The position numbers and the translations under genes were made by a program. A DNA stretch of 28,340 nucleotides from a virus, in IMG/VR virus record IMGVR_UViG_3300018815_000169, positions 1-28,340 of that record; one strand, written 5' to 3'. Below, piece by piece: positions 179 to 26,628 of the stretch. Each line of letters starts with the position of its first letter. The first letter of the stretch is position 1. Below the pieces are notes generated by a model. The model was not told the origin of the DNA, made no database searches, and worked only from the letters and a program-made list of their open reading frames with translations.

Positions 179-1267
179 TCATCCGGGTTCGGAGCCCCAG
201 CGCAGAATGGCCGCGTCGAGCGGAAGGGGCGGCGGATTTGCGACCGTAGAGGGCTGGTCGTCGAAGCGGGGCGACGGGGCCGGGGCGCCGTCTTCGAATG
301 TCCCACGCGCTTGATTGTGCGGATGGCCCGGCGCCTCGCCCAGGCTCAGCACGGGGGTGACGCAGGCCTCCGTCCCCGCGAAATGCTCCGCCCAGTCGTC
401 ACGCTTCCGGGCGGCGAACAGGGCGGCGAAGCGAAGATGAAGATCCGGCCATGCGGAGGTGTCGTACTGAGGCGCTTCGGCGGGGTCGATCCCCAGACCC
501 GAGAGCAGGGCGAGATAGAAGCGGGGCTCCAGCGCCGCGACCGCCACATAGCCGCCGTCCCGGCAGATGTAACACCGATAGAAGGGCGCGCCGCCGTCCA
601 GAAGGTTGGAGCCGCGGCGGTCGTTCCACAAGCCCTGGGCGCGCAGGGCGTGGAACAGGCCGCCCAGCAGGGCGGTCCCGTCCGTCATGGCGGCGTCCAC
701 GACGCGTCCGCGCCCGGTGGTTCGGACCTCCAGCAGGGCCGCCAGAACGCCGACGATCAGCATCATCGCGCCGCCGCCGTAGTCGCCGACCAGATTCAAG
801 GGCGGCGTCGGCGGTCGGTCCGGCGACCCCATGGCGTGAAGCAGACCGGTCAGTCCGATGTAGTTCAGATCGTGCCCGACGGTCTGGGCCAAGGGGCCGC
901 TCTGTCCCCAGCCCGTGATCCGCCCGAATACGAGGGCAGGGTTTCGGCCCAGCAGATCGGCCGGGCCATAGCCCAGACGTTCCATGACGCCAGGACGGAA
1001 ACCCTCGATCACGGCGTCGGCGGACTCGACCAGGCTCAGAACGCCGCGCCGGTCCGACGCCGACTTCAGATCGACCGGCACGGCGGCCCGATTGCGGTGA
1101 AGGACGGCGCCGCCCACCTCGGAAAAGACAGCCGGGCCCGCCGCATCCGAGCGGGTGAGGCGCAGCACCTCGGCCCCCATGTCGGCCAGCATCATGCCCG
1201 CGAAGGTGACGGGCCCCAGTCCGTCGAATTCGAGGATGCGAAGTCCGTTCAGCGGTTTCATATGCAT
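179..1267 (-). CDS. CaiB/BaiF family protein, alpha-methylacyl-CoA racemase-like
   Basis: The 362 aa product belongs to the family III CoA-transferase fold. It is closest to alpha-methylacyl-CoA racemases, cytoplasmic enzymes that epimerise the alpha carbon of 2-methyl-branched acyl-CoAs. The N-terminus (KPLNGLRILEF) and the region DMGAEVLRL are typical of the family. His132 in GHDLNY and Asp162 in GDYGGGAM have the 30-residue spacing of the known racemase catalytic pair (His126/Asp156 in the mycobacterial enzyme), which favours racemase over CoA-transferase. The length is normal. An alternative start lies two codons downstream (MKPL). It is a chromosomal gene just outside the attachment site. 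The exact substrate cannot be read from sequence. Confidence 0.85.
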   Translation of the reverse strand: MHMKPLNGLRILEFDGLGPVTFAGMMLADMGAEVLRLTRSDAAGPAVFSEVGGAVLHRNRAAVPVDLKSASDRRGVLSLVESADAVIEGFRPGVMERLGYGPADLLGRNPALVFGRITGWGQSGPLAQTVGHDLNYIGLTGLLHAMGSPDRPPTPPLNLVGDYGGGAMMLIVGVLAALLEVRTTGRGRVVDAAMTDGTALLGGLFHALRAQGLWNDRRGSNLLDGGAPFYRCYICRDGGYVAVAALEPRFYLALLSGLGIDPAEAPQYDTSAWPDLHLRFAALFAARKRDDWAEHFAGTEACVTPVLSLGEAPGHPHNQARGTFEDGAPAPSPRFDDQPSTVANPPPLPLDAAILRWGSEPG

Positions 1268-1983: not shown

Positions 1984-2071
1984 TCACACCCAAACTAAAT
2001 CTCGGCGGGGGGCTTGTACGACCGCTTCTGGCGCGGCATGGTGATCCAAATGGAGCGCCATGGAGCCCGCG

Positions 2072-2920
2072 ATGTCCCTCGACGCCTTTATTGAATGCCC
2101 CTCGCGACATATCGCGGATGATGAGAACCGCTGTACGGTTCACGATCAGACGGTTGTTCTGGGCGACTGCCTTGAAGGCCTGAAAGCGCTGTCGGACGGC
2201 TCGATTGACGTCGTGGTCACGTCCCCGCCCTACAATATCGGCATCTCATACCGGTCCTACGACGACCGCCGTCCCCGAGATGAATATCTCAAATGGTTGT
2301 CGGACATCGGCGCGCAGATCGCCCGCGTTCTGACGGATGGCGGCTCGTTCTTCCTGAACGTCGGCAGCACTAACGCTGACCCATGGGTTGCGCTGGACGT
2401 AGCGAACGCCTTCCGCGATCAGTTCGTCCTCCAGAATACGATTTCATGGATCAAGTCGGTCAGCATCGGTGACGACACCGTTGGCCACTTCAAGCCGATC
2501 ACCAGCCGCCGCTACATGAACAACAACCATGAGACCGTCTTCCACTTCACGAAGACGGGCGCGGTAGAAATCGACCGCCTCGCGATCGGCGTTCCGTTTA
2601 AGGACAAATCAAACATCGGCAGATGGGGCCACGCGCGTGACAAGCGCTGCGCCGGCAACGTCTGGTTCATCCCCTACAAGACGGTCACGTCAAAGGCCGA
2701 GAAGTTCAACCACCCCGCAGGCTTCCCTGTCGAGCTGGCCGAACGATGCATCAAGCTCCATGGGATCGAAGACGCCGTTGTGCTCGACCCCTTCCTCGGC
2801 GCCGGTTCAACGCTGGTCGCGGCGGCAAAACTAGGCTGCGAAGGCATCGGTTTTGAGATTGATCCGGTCTATGCGGCTGCGGCGGTGTCGCGACTTCGGC
2901 TGGTTGGCATCCAAGCTTAG
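2072..2920 (+). CDS. Beta-class DNA methyltransferase (adenine-N6 or cytosine-N4)
   Basis: The 282 aa enzyme should transfer a methyl group from S-adenosylmethionine to an exocyclic amino group in DNA. The catalytic motif IV TSPPYN (residues 50-55) comes before the SAM-binding motif I DPFLGAGS (239-246), the order that defines the beta class. The SPPY form is most common in N4-cytosine enzymes but also occurs in N6-adenine enzymes, so the base is not settled. The start at 2072 is chosen because GGAG lies 6 bases upstream; 2060 is an in-frame alternative. No restriction partner is adjacent, so it is an orphan enzyme that may protect phage DNA or alter gene expression. It is divergent in strand from the late genes and ends before the terminator at 3082. 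Confidence 0.88.
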   Translation: MSLDAFIECPSRHIADDENRCTVHDQTVVLGDCLEGLKALSDGSIDVVVTSPPYNIGISYRSYDDRRPRDEYLKWLSDIGAQIARVLTDGGSFFLNVGSTNADPWVALDVANAFRDQFVLQNTISWIKSVSIGDDTVGHFKPITSRRYMNNNHETVFHFTKTGAVEIDRLAIGVPFKDKSNIGRWGHARDKRCAGNVWFIPYKTVTSKAEKFNHPAGFPVELAERCIKLHGIEDAVVLDPFLGAGSTLVAAAKLGCEGIGFEIDPVYAAAAVSRLRLVGIQA

Positions 2921-5676: not shown

Positions 5677-6432
5677 ATGGACGGTTTCATTATGCAGGGC
5701 GTCGAAATCCTGCCGTGCTACGATTTTCAGATCGCCATCCCTCAAGGGGATTGGATGTACGACGACCTTCGATCCACCGGAGAGTATGAGCCCTACGTGA
5801 TCCGTCCGTTCCTGGAGAAGGTCGCGAACCGAAAAGTGCTGGACGTCGGGGCTAACGTCGGCGTCTTTTCGATCGCCGCCTCAAAGACGGCGCGCTCCGT
5901 TCAATGTGTAGAGGCAAGCCCTGAGAACGCGAAGTTTTTGGCTTGCAACGCCACCATGAACGGGGCCGACAACATCACCATTTTTCCCGTCGCGGCTTCA
6001 GACCGAACCGGGATGGCGACGTTCCATCGAAGCCAGCACAGCAACAAGACCCTGCGCGAAATCGCAATCACGCCTGATACGATCAGTCAAATCGATGTGG
6101 TCTTTTCAACGACGCTAGACGCCTTAGTCGAGGAGGCGGACGTCATAAAGATCGACATCGAAGGGCGAGAGTTCGCCGCCCTCAAAGGCGCCAGCCGTTT
6201 GATCAGCCAACGCCCTGTTGTGTTCCTGGAGTTCTCGCCGGTCTTCATGCGCCATGGTTGCGATGTGGACGCAGAGACGTTCTGGACCCTCTTTTCAGAC
6301 TATCAGATCACGATCCTCCACCGGGACATGAGCCAGGAAACGACGACCACTGATCGGTTAATGCAGGTCTGGGCCGACTATATGAGCCGAAACGTCACCC
6401 ATGTGGATCTGATGCTGACGCCGACGGCATAG
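5677..6432 (+). CDS. FkbM family SAM-dependent methyltransferase (phage cargo gene)
   Basis: The 251 aa product has the SAM-binding motif VLDVGANVG (residues 54-62), an acidic second-strand end (CVEASPEN), and the FkbM-typical VIKIDIEG (156-163) followed by EFAALKGA. FkbM-type enzymes methylate hydroxyl groups, often on sugars or small molecules; the substrate here is unknown. It is the only plus-strand gene inside the late block and faces the tail spike gene with 3 bases between stop codons. That fits a moron acquired by the phage, perhaps modifying host surface glycan to block other phages. There is no signal peptide. Confidence 0.85.
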   Translation: MDGFIMQGVEILPCYDFQIAIPQGDWMYDDLRSTGEYEPYVIRPFLEKVANRKVLDVGANVGVFSIAASKTARSVQCVEASPENAKFLACNATMNGADNITIFPVAASDRTGMATFHRSQHSNKTLREIAITPDTISQIDVVFSTTLDALVEEADVIKIDIEGREFAALKGASRLISQRPVVFLEFSPVFMRHGCDVDAETFWTLFSDYQITILHRDMSQETTTTDRLMQVWADYMSRNVTHVDLMLTPTA

Positions 6433-24868: not shown

Positions 24869-25588
24869 TCAAGCGGCGTTTCTGTCTCCCATTCTCCGGA
24901 AGGCGACAGCGGCCATCTCTAGGGCGACGATCAACTGGCCTTCAAGGACGATGGCCCTGCGATCGTCACAGCCCGCGATGGTTCGAAGGGTCACGCCTTC
25001 ACCACAGACCGCGATCATCAGGTCGAACGGGCCGGAGCCGCCGGAACTGATCACGATATGCTCGCGAAGCCACGCGATCTCGCTCTTGGCCTGCATAGAC
25101 ACTTCGGTCGGGAGGAAGGTGGTGGTTTCTCCAGATCCGTTGTCGTTGTCTGCCTTCGACCGCAGGCCATCCCATGTCGCTCGGTCGTGGAGGGCGCGCA
25201 CCTTCCGGCCCGTGGCGATGTGGTCGGGCGATAGGCGCCGCTTGCTCTCCAGCCACACGAAACCGTCGCGGCTGAAGCTGTTGCCGGCCGGTTCGGTCTT
25301 CACTCCGCGAGAGGCTAGCAGTTCGTTTTGCTCCCCGATGTCGTTGGCGACCTGGGATGCGGCCCGCTCCGCTTCGCGCTGGATCAGCCGTTCATCGACC
25401 CGGTTCAGGATTTCTTCGCAGTCTCGAAGGTTCAGCAGGTGCAACTGGATCGCGGCCTTTTCGACCTGGGCCATCAGGTTGCAGCCGTGATCGACCTCAA
25501 CCCGGCCTCGGATGATCTCCAGGCGCTGGGCGATCTTACGGCGGGCGAGTTCGACCTTTTGGCGATGGGTGGCGGTTAGCTGGCTCAT
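24869..25588 (-). CDS. DUF6456-like protein, possible late regulator
   Basis: The 239 aa product has a helical, charged N-terminus (about residues 8-95, with many Glu/Arg), then RRLSPDHIATGRKVRALHDR (about 115-135) and a C-terminal block FDLMIAVCGEGVTLRTIAGC. The spacing of the LSP..IA....R segment and the final VCG.G block recalls DUF6456 domains of alphaproteobacterial proteins, which is a tentative match. As the last early gene, right before a terminator and the late genes, it is placed like a Q-type antiterminator or late activator. That role is inference. It is coupled by ATGA to the Dcm gene downstream. Confidence 0.5.
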   Translation of the reverse strand: MSQLTATHRQKVELARRKIAQRLEIIRGRVEVDHGCNLMAQVEKAAIQLHLLNLRDCEEILNRVDERLIQREAERAASQVANDIGEQNELLASRGVKTEPAGNSFSRDGFVWLESKRRLSPDHIATGRKVRALHDRATWDGLRSKADNDNGSGETTTFLPTEVSMQAKSEIAWLREHIVISSGGSGPFDLMIAVCGEGVTLRTIAGCDDRRAIVLEGQLIVALEMAAVAFRRMGDRNAA

Positions 25589-26628
25589 GCCGCACTCTCC
25601 TTGGGTTTGGTGTCGTTGGCGGGGGTCATGGTCATTTCGGCGGCGAGGATGGCGCGGCCGAGGATTTCCGGGATCGCCGGGACAACCGCGTTGCCGAGGC
25701 CATGCAGGCGGTCCACTGAGGCGGGAATCCCATAAGCCACTCGACCCACGTGGGGTTCAGCCCGCCACGACGTCCCGAGCTGGCGCCCTCGGCTATCCCG
25801 ACCGAGCGCGGAAGCGACGATTGCTGACGCCCAGGCGCGTTGCTCATCCCGGCCTTGTGGTCCCCGGCGTTCGGGGTCGGCCACATCCGGGGAGCGATAC
25901 CCGACGACGGACCACGAGTCGGCCACATCGAAGCCCATCGGTTCAGCGAGACCGATTTGTTCGTCTCGAAGTTCAGGGCTTCCGACGACGTGCATTCTCG
26001 GACGATATGGTCTGATGCTGTCGGCGTCGGGATCGAGTGCGTAGGCTTCGCCACCATGCCCAGCGCGAACGCCTTGCTCGGCAGCGGCGCGAGAAAGTCC
26101 CTTGGCGATCTCCCGCCGGAGCGCATCGCCGTAGCCTTCGTGTTGCTGGCCTCTGGCGTAGGCAACAATCCAGAGCCGGTCGCGACGGTGAGGGGCGCCA
26201 ACGGCGGAAGCGGGTATGCAATCCCACCACGCATCATACCCGAGCGAGGCCAGGTCTCCGAGAACGTCTCCAAGTCCTCGACCAAGGAGCGCTGCGACGT
26301 TTTCCACGATGACGTAGCGGGGTCGTAGCTCGCGAACCAGTCGTGCATATTCTCTCCAAAGACCGGATCTCTCTCCGGCGAGGCCGGCGCCTTTGCCGGC
26401 AAAGCTGATGTCTTGGCAGGGAAACCCGCCGCAGATCACATCGACATACCCGACCTGTTCAGCGATCAGGGTGGTTACGTCTTCGAAGCAAGGAACACCG
26501 GGCCAATGCGTCGCCAGCAGGTGGCGACAGACGGCGTTGATCTCGCAGAAGGCGACGGTCTCCATCCCGGCGCGCTCAAGTCCAAGGCCGAATCCGCCTA
26601 TGCCGCTGAACAGGTCAAGCACCCGCAT
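25585..26628 (-). CDS. DNA cytosine-C5 methyltransferase (Dcm-like)
   Basis: The 347 aa enzyme has the C5-methyltransferase motifs in order: I DLFSGIGGFGLGLERAG (residues 5-21), IV GGFPCQDIS (68-75; Cys71 is the attacking cysteine), VI ENV (110-112), VIII RRDRLWIVA (148-156), a target-recognition region (about 160-290), and IX-X with DRLHGLGNAVVP near the end. The recognition site is unknown. No restriction enzyme is nearby. Its start overlaps the replication protein stop by one base. From about residue 94 onward the same DNA is open in a second frame that looks like another real protein (25632-26348). Confidence 0.92.
   Translation of the reverse strand: MRVLDLFSGIGGFGLGLERAGMETVAFCEINAVCRHLLATHWPGVPCFEDVTTLIAEQVGYVDVICGGFPCQDISFAGKGAGLAGERSGLWREYARLVRELRPRYVIVENVAALLGRGLGDVLGDLASLGYDAWWDCIPASAVGAPHRRDRLWIVAYARGQQHEGYGDALRREIAKGLSRAAAEQGVRAGHGGEAYALDPDADSIRPYRPRMHVVGSPELRDEQIGLAEPMGFDVADSWSVVGYRSPDVADPERRGPQGRDEQRAWASAIVASALGRDSRGRQLGTSWRAEPHVGRVAYGIPASVDRLHGLGNAVVPAIPEILGRAILAAEMTMTPANDTKPKESAA
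25632..26348 (-). CDS. Nested out-of-frame gene inside the Dcm-like gene
   Basis: On the same strand but in another frame, an ATG at 26348 with GGAGAG just upstream opens 238 codons wholly inside the methyltransferase gene. The product starts MHDWFASYDPATSSWKTSQR and has ETFSETWPRSGMMRGGIAYP with a PLPPLAPLT run. It then has repeats of the type (L/I/W)PTP.A.(D/N) (LLPTPEAS, SIPTPTASDH, MWPTPNAGDH) and ends with GLNPTWVEWLMGFPPQWT. To my knowledge this pattern is shared by many phage proteins annotated as methyltransferase-related or hypothetical. The function is unknown. The same bases give the Dcm motif EPHVGRVAYGIP in one frame and NPTWVEWLMGFP in the other. Confidence 0.7.
   Translation of the reverse strand: MHDWFASYDPATSSWKTSQRSLVEDLETFSETWPRSGMMRGGIAYPLPPLAPLTVATGSGLLPTPEASNTKATAMRSGGRSPRDFLAPLPSKAFALGMVAKPTHSIPTPTASDHIVRECTSSEALNFETNKSVSLNRWASMWPTRGPSSGIAPRMWPTPNAGDHKAGMSNAPGRQQSSLPRSVGIAEGASSGRRGGLNPTWVEWLMGFPPQWTACMASATRLSRRSRKSSAAPSSPPK

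Follow-up and report, generated by a model that had tools for sequence, protein, structure and literature searches.

The Dcm-like cytosine methyltransferase gene of the viral record IMGVR_UViG_3300018815_000169 raises the question of whether a second protein is encoded in another frame within the same bases and, if so, what that protein would do. The window analysed here is the whole stretch of 28,340 nucleotides, and the coordinates of the relevant features are collected in Table 1. An earlier note on this DNA had described an inner frame of about 238 codons within the Dcm-like gene, with an ATG preceded by GGAGAG, three PTPxAx(D/N) repeats, an SETWPRSG segment and a distinct C-terminal segment. 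All of these elements were recovered: the frame, hereafter beta, is open and gives 238 aa from its ATG, the GGAGAG is present upstream, and the repeats, the SETWPRSG segment and the C-terminal NPTWVEWLMGFPPQWT were found in the translation. The ATG of the outer gene, hereafter alpha, shares bases with the stop codon of its upstream neighbour (TGATG) and has a GGAG upstream; judging from the TGATG arrangement, its start is coupled to that gene. The sequence directly upstream of the beta ATG is TTTGGAGAGAAT. No stop interrupts the +1 frame between 26435 and the TGA, and two candidate starts are available, TTG 26402 (256 aa) and ATG 26348, although the extension upstream of the latter is probably not translated as beta, because it evolves as alpha-only sequence.

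Table 1. Position of alpha, beta and their motifs and zones in the window.
Feature	Coordinates	Strand	Remarks
Alpha, C5 cytosine methyltransferase (Dcm-like)	25585..26628	-	ATG 26628, stop 25585; 347 aa
Alpha motif I, DLFSGIGG	26616-26593	-	Located in the translation
Alpha motif IV, GGFPCQ	26430-26413	-	Located in the translation
Alpha motif VI, ENV	26304-26284	-	Located in the translation
Alpha motif VIII	26199-26158	-	Located in the translation
Alpha motif X, GLGNAVVPAIPEILGRAI	25648..25701	-	GLGNAVVP from 25701 onward; alpha frame
Beta, nested +1-frame gene, 238 aa	25632..26348	-	ATG 26348, GGAGAG upstream; TGA 25632
Open beta frame upstream of ATG 26348	26349..26435	-	Overlaps alpha motif IV; evolves as alpha-only
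Dual-constraint zone	26157..26348	-	Shared bases encode alpha motifs VI-VIII and the N-terminal block of beta, SSWKTSQ...SETWPRSGMM
Beta target-recognition region (TRD), putative	25760..26156	-	Two of the three PTPxAx(D/N) repeats; near-neutral and predicted disordered in the alpha frame
PTPxAx(D/N) repeats in beta	26162-26142, 26030-26010, 25880-25860	-	The first straddles the upstream edge of the TRD
SETWPRSGMM in beta	26261-26232	-	From the translation
Putative motif IX, beta frame, NPTWVEWLMGFPPQWT	25710..25757	-	Conserved C-terminal end of beta

Alpha matched the Pfam family PF00145 (3.8e-40) over residues 1-163 only, and the PHROGs family phrog_363 over residues 1-335. Beta matched phrog_1008 (3.4e-28) and gave no match by sequence in PDB or Pfam. 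Elsewhere in the window, the opposite end of the record (2060-2920, plus strand) carries a further, unrelated DNA methylase of the amino-methyltransferase type, with the motif TSPPYN, and reading of the translations also revealed a CoA-transferase-like gene at the edge (179-1267, minus strand) and an FkbM-like methyltransferase among phage structural genes (5677-6432, plus strand).

The openness of the inner frame was compared with chance by shuffling synonymous codons of the window's Dcm gene 20,000 times and scoring the whole +1 stretch as open or closed. It stayed open in 866 shuffles (4.3%), with a median longest run of 157 codons, so that the window alone is weak, suggestive evidence for the inner frame. 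Relatives were then compared. In phage and viral-contig loci, recovered with beta or alpha as the query and taken together with the window, beta was found at the same +1 offset in all 166 loci with both matches, including the set seeded with alpha only. Among contigs from bacterial and archaeal genomes, 74 of the 77 loci with both partners had an open, homologous +1 beta, and the remaining three were damaged or interrupted copies; the taxa carrying a +1 beta include Alphaproteobacteria, Actinomycetota, Bacillota, Bacteroidota, Synergistaceae and a Thermoplasmatota archaeon, among others. Same-frame fusion was considered for the genome loci L188, L190 and L226 and rejected, as the genes there are frameshifted or interrupted and the other frame is still readable. 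Across the relatives, stops in the +1 frame fell to 0.23 per 100 codons in the overlap, compared to 2.89 upstream and to 4.4 in the +2 frame, and nearly all bins past GFPCQ+20 had no +1 stop at all.

To locate the selection acting on each frame, 51 independent homologue pairs were aligned and the mismatches were counted at alpha codon positions 1, 2 and 3. Upstream of the overlap the values were 0.177, 0.138 and 0.481, and position 3 exceeded position 1 in 51 of 51 pairs. From about 25-30 codons past GFPCQ, in the dual zone, they became 0.185, 0.093 and 0.261, a third-position drop which indicates constraint on both frames; in the window, the onset of beta-frame constraint coincides exactly with ATG 26348. 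In the TRD, after motif VIII (0.452, 0.264 and 0.228), the free position was alpha position 1 (position 3 in beta), and this beta-frame wobble was seen in 49 of the 51 pairs. Motif IX (0.304, 0.186 and 0.153) also followed the beta frame, and motif X (0.198, 0.116 and 0.424) the alpha frame again. When finer bins were used, the beta-silent position after motif VIII reached 0.50, the same value as that of the alpha silent positions upstream, so alpha is essentially unconstrained there, save for staying open.

A similar pattern was obtained when single differences were classed by their effect in both frames. The per-site rates of changes synonymous in alpha and nonsynonymous in beta, compared to the reverse class, were 0.123 versus 0.011 upstream, 0.033 versus 0.072 in the TRD, 0.008 versus 0.060 in motif IX and 0.099 versus 0.009 in motif X. 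As read from these substitutions, selection acts in order on the alpha frame (motifs I-VIII), on both frames in the dual zone, on the beta frame and again on the alpha frame (motif X), and over alpha residues ~160-290 the inner frame is strongly constrained while the annotated Dcm frame is little more than a passenger. A chance open frame, against which the window alone is weak evidence, was ruled out by the stop counts, the frame-specific rates and the codon-position test. It is the comparison across relatives which decides that the inner frame is a real gene and the dual coding real. The true dual coding put forward in the earlier note is thus upheld by the open +1 frame of the relatives and by frame-specific selection, and the frame-specific synonymous rates that it had proposed as a check revealed constraint in the inner frame. 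Its further claim, that both frames carry conserved motifs over the same bases, was correct for alpha motifs VI-VIII, opposite the beta block SSWKTSQ...SETWPRSG, and for the IX/X junction, but not for most of the overlap (alpha ~160-290), where only beta is strongly constrained.

The best-conserved part of beta is LNPTWVEWLMGFPPQWT, in which M224, G225 and P227 were invariant among 82 sequences. The distance from the beta LMG to the GN of alpha motif X was fixed at 41 nt in 108 of 113 loci, and motif IX of C5-methyltransferases sits just ahead of motif X. A motif IX is present in beta and absent from alpha, and in alpha motif X the residues G312, N313, V316 and P317 were invariant, with a weak alignment to residues 299-318 of HhaI. 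Relatives with other frame layouts, together with the general background on these enzymes, identify LNPTWVEWLMGFPPQWT as the putative motif IX of a C5-methyltransferase. In the Streptomyces phages phiBT1, Lilbooboo and Samy and the Mycobacterium phages Phanphagia and Camperdownii, alpha ends after motif VIII, and an ORF in the beta frame carries LPTP repeats, motif IX (e.g. LSPEFAEWLMGLDPGWVT) and an in-frame motif X (e.g. ERIGNGVVPHQ), so homologues of beta do exist outside the shadow of a Dcm gene. In the Streptomyces phage Darolandstone and the Rhodococcus phage ReT1v-2, the LPTP repeats alone are in +1, motifs IX and X being read in the alpha frame, and all modules are in one frame in the Gordonia phage Jabberwocky and in M. 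abscessus prophages. The codon-position test detected beta-frame coding again in the Streptomyces set; for this test the single-frame Gordonia set was small and uneven. An HMM built from nested +1 betas matched the C-terminal half of the single-frame proteins of Gordonia and M. abscessus phages (E = 2e-11 to 7e-8), which is also covered by phrog_116 and phrog_1008. These split and single-frame relatives argue that the PTPxAxD repeats and motif IX constitute the target-recognition half of a C5-methyltransferase and, together with frame-specific selection, support the earlier suggestion of a methyltransferase partner with a role in target recognition.

Some loci depart from these layouts. In L249, L250 and L247, from Gordonia and M. 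abscessus phages, the N-terminal block of beta, SETxPTSGMTRNG...LPTPRATDGTKGG, is still visible in +1 despite the single-frame layout, and may be a relic or encode a further short product. In L243 and L226, from Synergistaceae contigs, beta stops shortly past motif IX and alpha has a later RVAxGV..RLRALGNAVVP element, and in a few loci the distance from the beta LMG to the alpha GN was 425-527 nt, not 41. In L226 (1143-2643), a long insert near motif IV interrupts alpha and contains a zinc-finger/HNH-like stretch; it is possibly a mobile intron or intein-like element. Finally, the downstream 'DNA methylase' genes of L002 (2702-3289, Lilbooboo gp33) and of L259 and L260 (2071 onward) have a late annotated start, probably by ~50-60 codons, because GFPCQ+30 to +85 is already constrained in frame.

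Structure predictions were obtained for each chain. In the AlphaFold model of alpha, residues 1-185 and ~311-330 (the motif X region) were mostly above 80 pLDDT, whereas residues 190-299 remained at ~30-60, the low confidence expected of a tether. In Foldseek searches, the large domain of alpha gave M.HaeIII and M.HhaI as top matches over 162 columns. Beta modelled alone reached a pLDDT of 58, and this lone model had no Foldseek match among solved structures; prediction of the isolated chain may fail for a DNA-binding half whose folding depends on the partner.

Taking these data together, we consider it highly probable that the locus encodes a single C5 cytosine methyltransferase made of two chains, in which alpha would provide motifs I-VIII and X and beta the TRD and motif IX. 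The basis for this assignment is the selection on each frame, the homology to single-frame and split relatives and the predicted fold of alpha with its disordered middle; from it we infer the independent initiation of beta, the assembly, the catalysis and the protective role. From one mRNA, alpha would be translated through coupled initiation and beta from an internal start at ATG 26348. Alpha would fold an AdoMet-binding catalytic domain with motifs I-VIII, followed by a poorly structured tether and by the motif X helix that would complete the domain, and beta would form a small domain with the TRD and motif IX, translated from its own ATG and ribosome-binding site. Once translated, the two chains should come together as an active enzyme with sequence specificity, which most likely would methylate the phage genome and protect it from restriction.

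Three other explanations were weighed. Programmed frameshifting near motif VIII could join beta to alpha in one chain with motifs I-VIII, TRD and motif IX. This would fit with a beta frame that is open through motif VIII and with beta starts without one conserved position, as a conserved position of the beta start codon was not found across the loci. However, beta constraint begins at ~GFPCQ+25 to +30, about 55 codons ahead of the end of motif VIII, which disfavours a programmed shift; sites with a Shine-Dalgarno sequence plus a start were enriched in the beta frame (66 of 160 loci versus 22 of 160 in the +2 control frame), and the product of a single shift would be devoid of motif X. The text of the GeneTack frameshift survey mentions no DNA methyltransferase of such kind, and we regard this explanation as unlikely.

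Beta could also be an independent protein, for instance an inhibitor or an anti-restriction factor, whose gene merely overlaps that of the enzyme; this would agree with the distinct reading frame of beta, its plausible start of its own and the lack of a match to any solved structure. Against this, Gordonia and M. abscessus phages have these modules joined to the catalytic half within one reading frame, motif IX is found in beta only, 41 nt ahead of motif X, and the region of alpha where its own TRD would be is near-neutral and predicted to be disordered, making a separate partner very improbable and leaving the inhibitor and anti-restriction guesses of the earlier note unsupported. Even less credible is that the inner frame is a shadow of a conserved Dcm gene, kept open by high GC and by the alpha motifs, despite the fraction of shuffles that left the window frame open and a similarity in the SETWPRSG block that lies partly over alpha motifs VI-VIII. 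The substitution pattern of the TRD is set by beta and not by alpha in the 49 of 51 pairs mentioned above, substitutions silent in alpha that change beta are depleted ~6-fold in the TRD compared to changes silent in both frames and ~20-fold in motif IX, without such depletion upstream, and beta survives in relatives with no alpha over that region. The frame-specific rates already refute the shadow explanation.

The two-chain methyltransferase seems likely, though with less assurance than the assignment of this locus, to represent a widespread and largely unrecognised class of C5-methyltransferases, in which the catalytic core and the DNA-reading half are encoded in overlapping frames and coding is handed from alpha to beta and back to alpha in one gene. 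In such a class, the TRD, IX and X modules would have switched frames repeatedly, giving layouts with all modules in a single frame, with the TRD alone nested, with TRD and IX nested, or with TRD, IX and X as a downstream gene, and the C-terminal part of the annotated 'Dcm' would be mostly tether and not a specificity domain. Its spread across many phyla argues that the dual coding is old. The specificity of methyltransferases is predicted from the annotated protein, and since the specificity region of this class would lie in an unannotated or separately annotated frame, such predictions would use the wrong sequence; likewise, cloning a codon-recoded alpha would abolish the enzyme. The overlap described here also offers an exceptionally deep and clean example, in nature, of long same-strand gene overlap, and as the hand-over of selection between frames is measurable and the intermediate arrangements are alive in phages, the origin and upkeep of overlapping genes become testable with it.

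Regarding known systems, the single-chain enzymes M.HhaI and M.HaeIII can be aligned with the large domain of alpha by sequence as well as by fold, and the motif X of alpha aligns weakly with that of HhaI, but in both enzymes one chain also holds the TRD and motif IX. Among the PHROGs 'DNA methyltransferase' families, beta falls with phrog_1008 and alpha with phrog_363, and phrog_116 is matched by the catalytic half of split relatives as well as by their C-terminal IX-X part; there, however, the three are separate families and not one two-frame enzyme. A search that covered mainly the open literature and few subscription papers found no paper describing the overlap family or its frequency. For EcoHK31I, Lee, Kam and Shaw reportedly found in 1995 that the beta gene overlaps alpha in another frame and that both proteins are needed in vitro. 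As described in PMC3404938, the two-polypeptide C5-methyltransferase M.EcoHK31I (YGGCCR) has motifs I-VIII and X and the predicted TRD in its large subunit and motif IX in the small one, whereas M.AquI (CYCGRG), with alpha and beta subunits, is naturally split after motif VIII and has motifs IX and X in the small subunit. Compared by these descriptions, M.AquI resembles the relatives in phiBT1, Lilbooboo and Samy, whose beta carries both motif IX and motif X, an arrangement also found in Phanphagia and Camperdownii but not in the window, where motif X is in alpha and the overlap spans all of beta. By the same descriptions, M.EcoHK31I is the nearest precedent, sharing with the window an alpha with motifs I-VIII and X and a beta with motif IX, but its predicted TRD is in alpha, whereas that of the window is assigned to beta because of the frame-specific selection, the predicted disorder of the near-neutral alpha stretch and the single-frame relatives. 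The kind of system thus has a precedent, and the interest lies in the scale, in the way selection is handed over between frames and in the existence of other frame layouts; in its breadth, in the hand-over between frames and in the location of the TRD in beta, the family described here goes beyond M.EcoHK31I.
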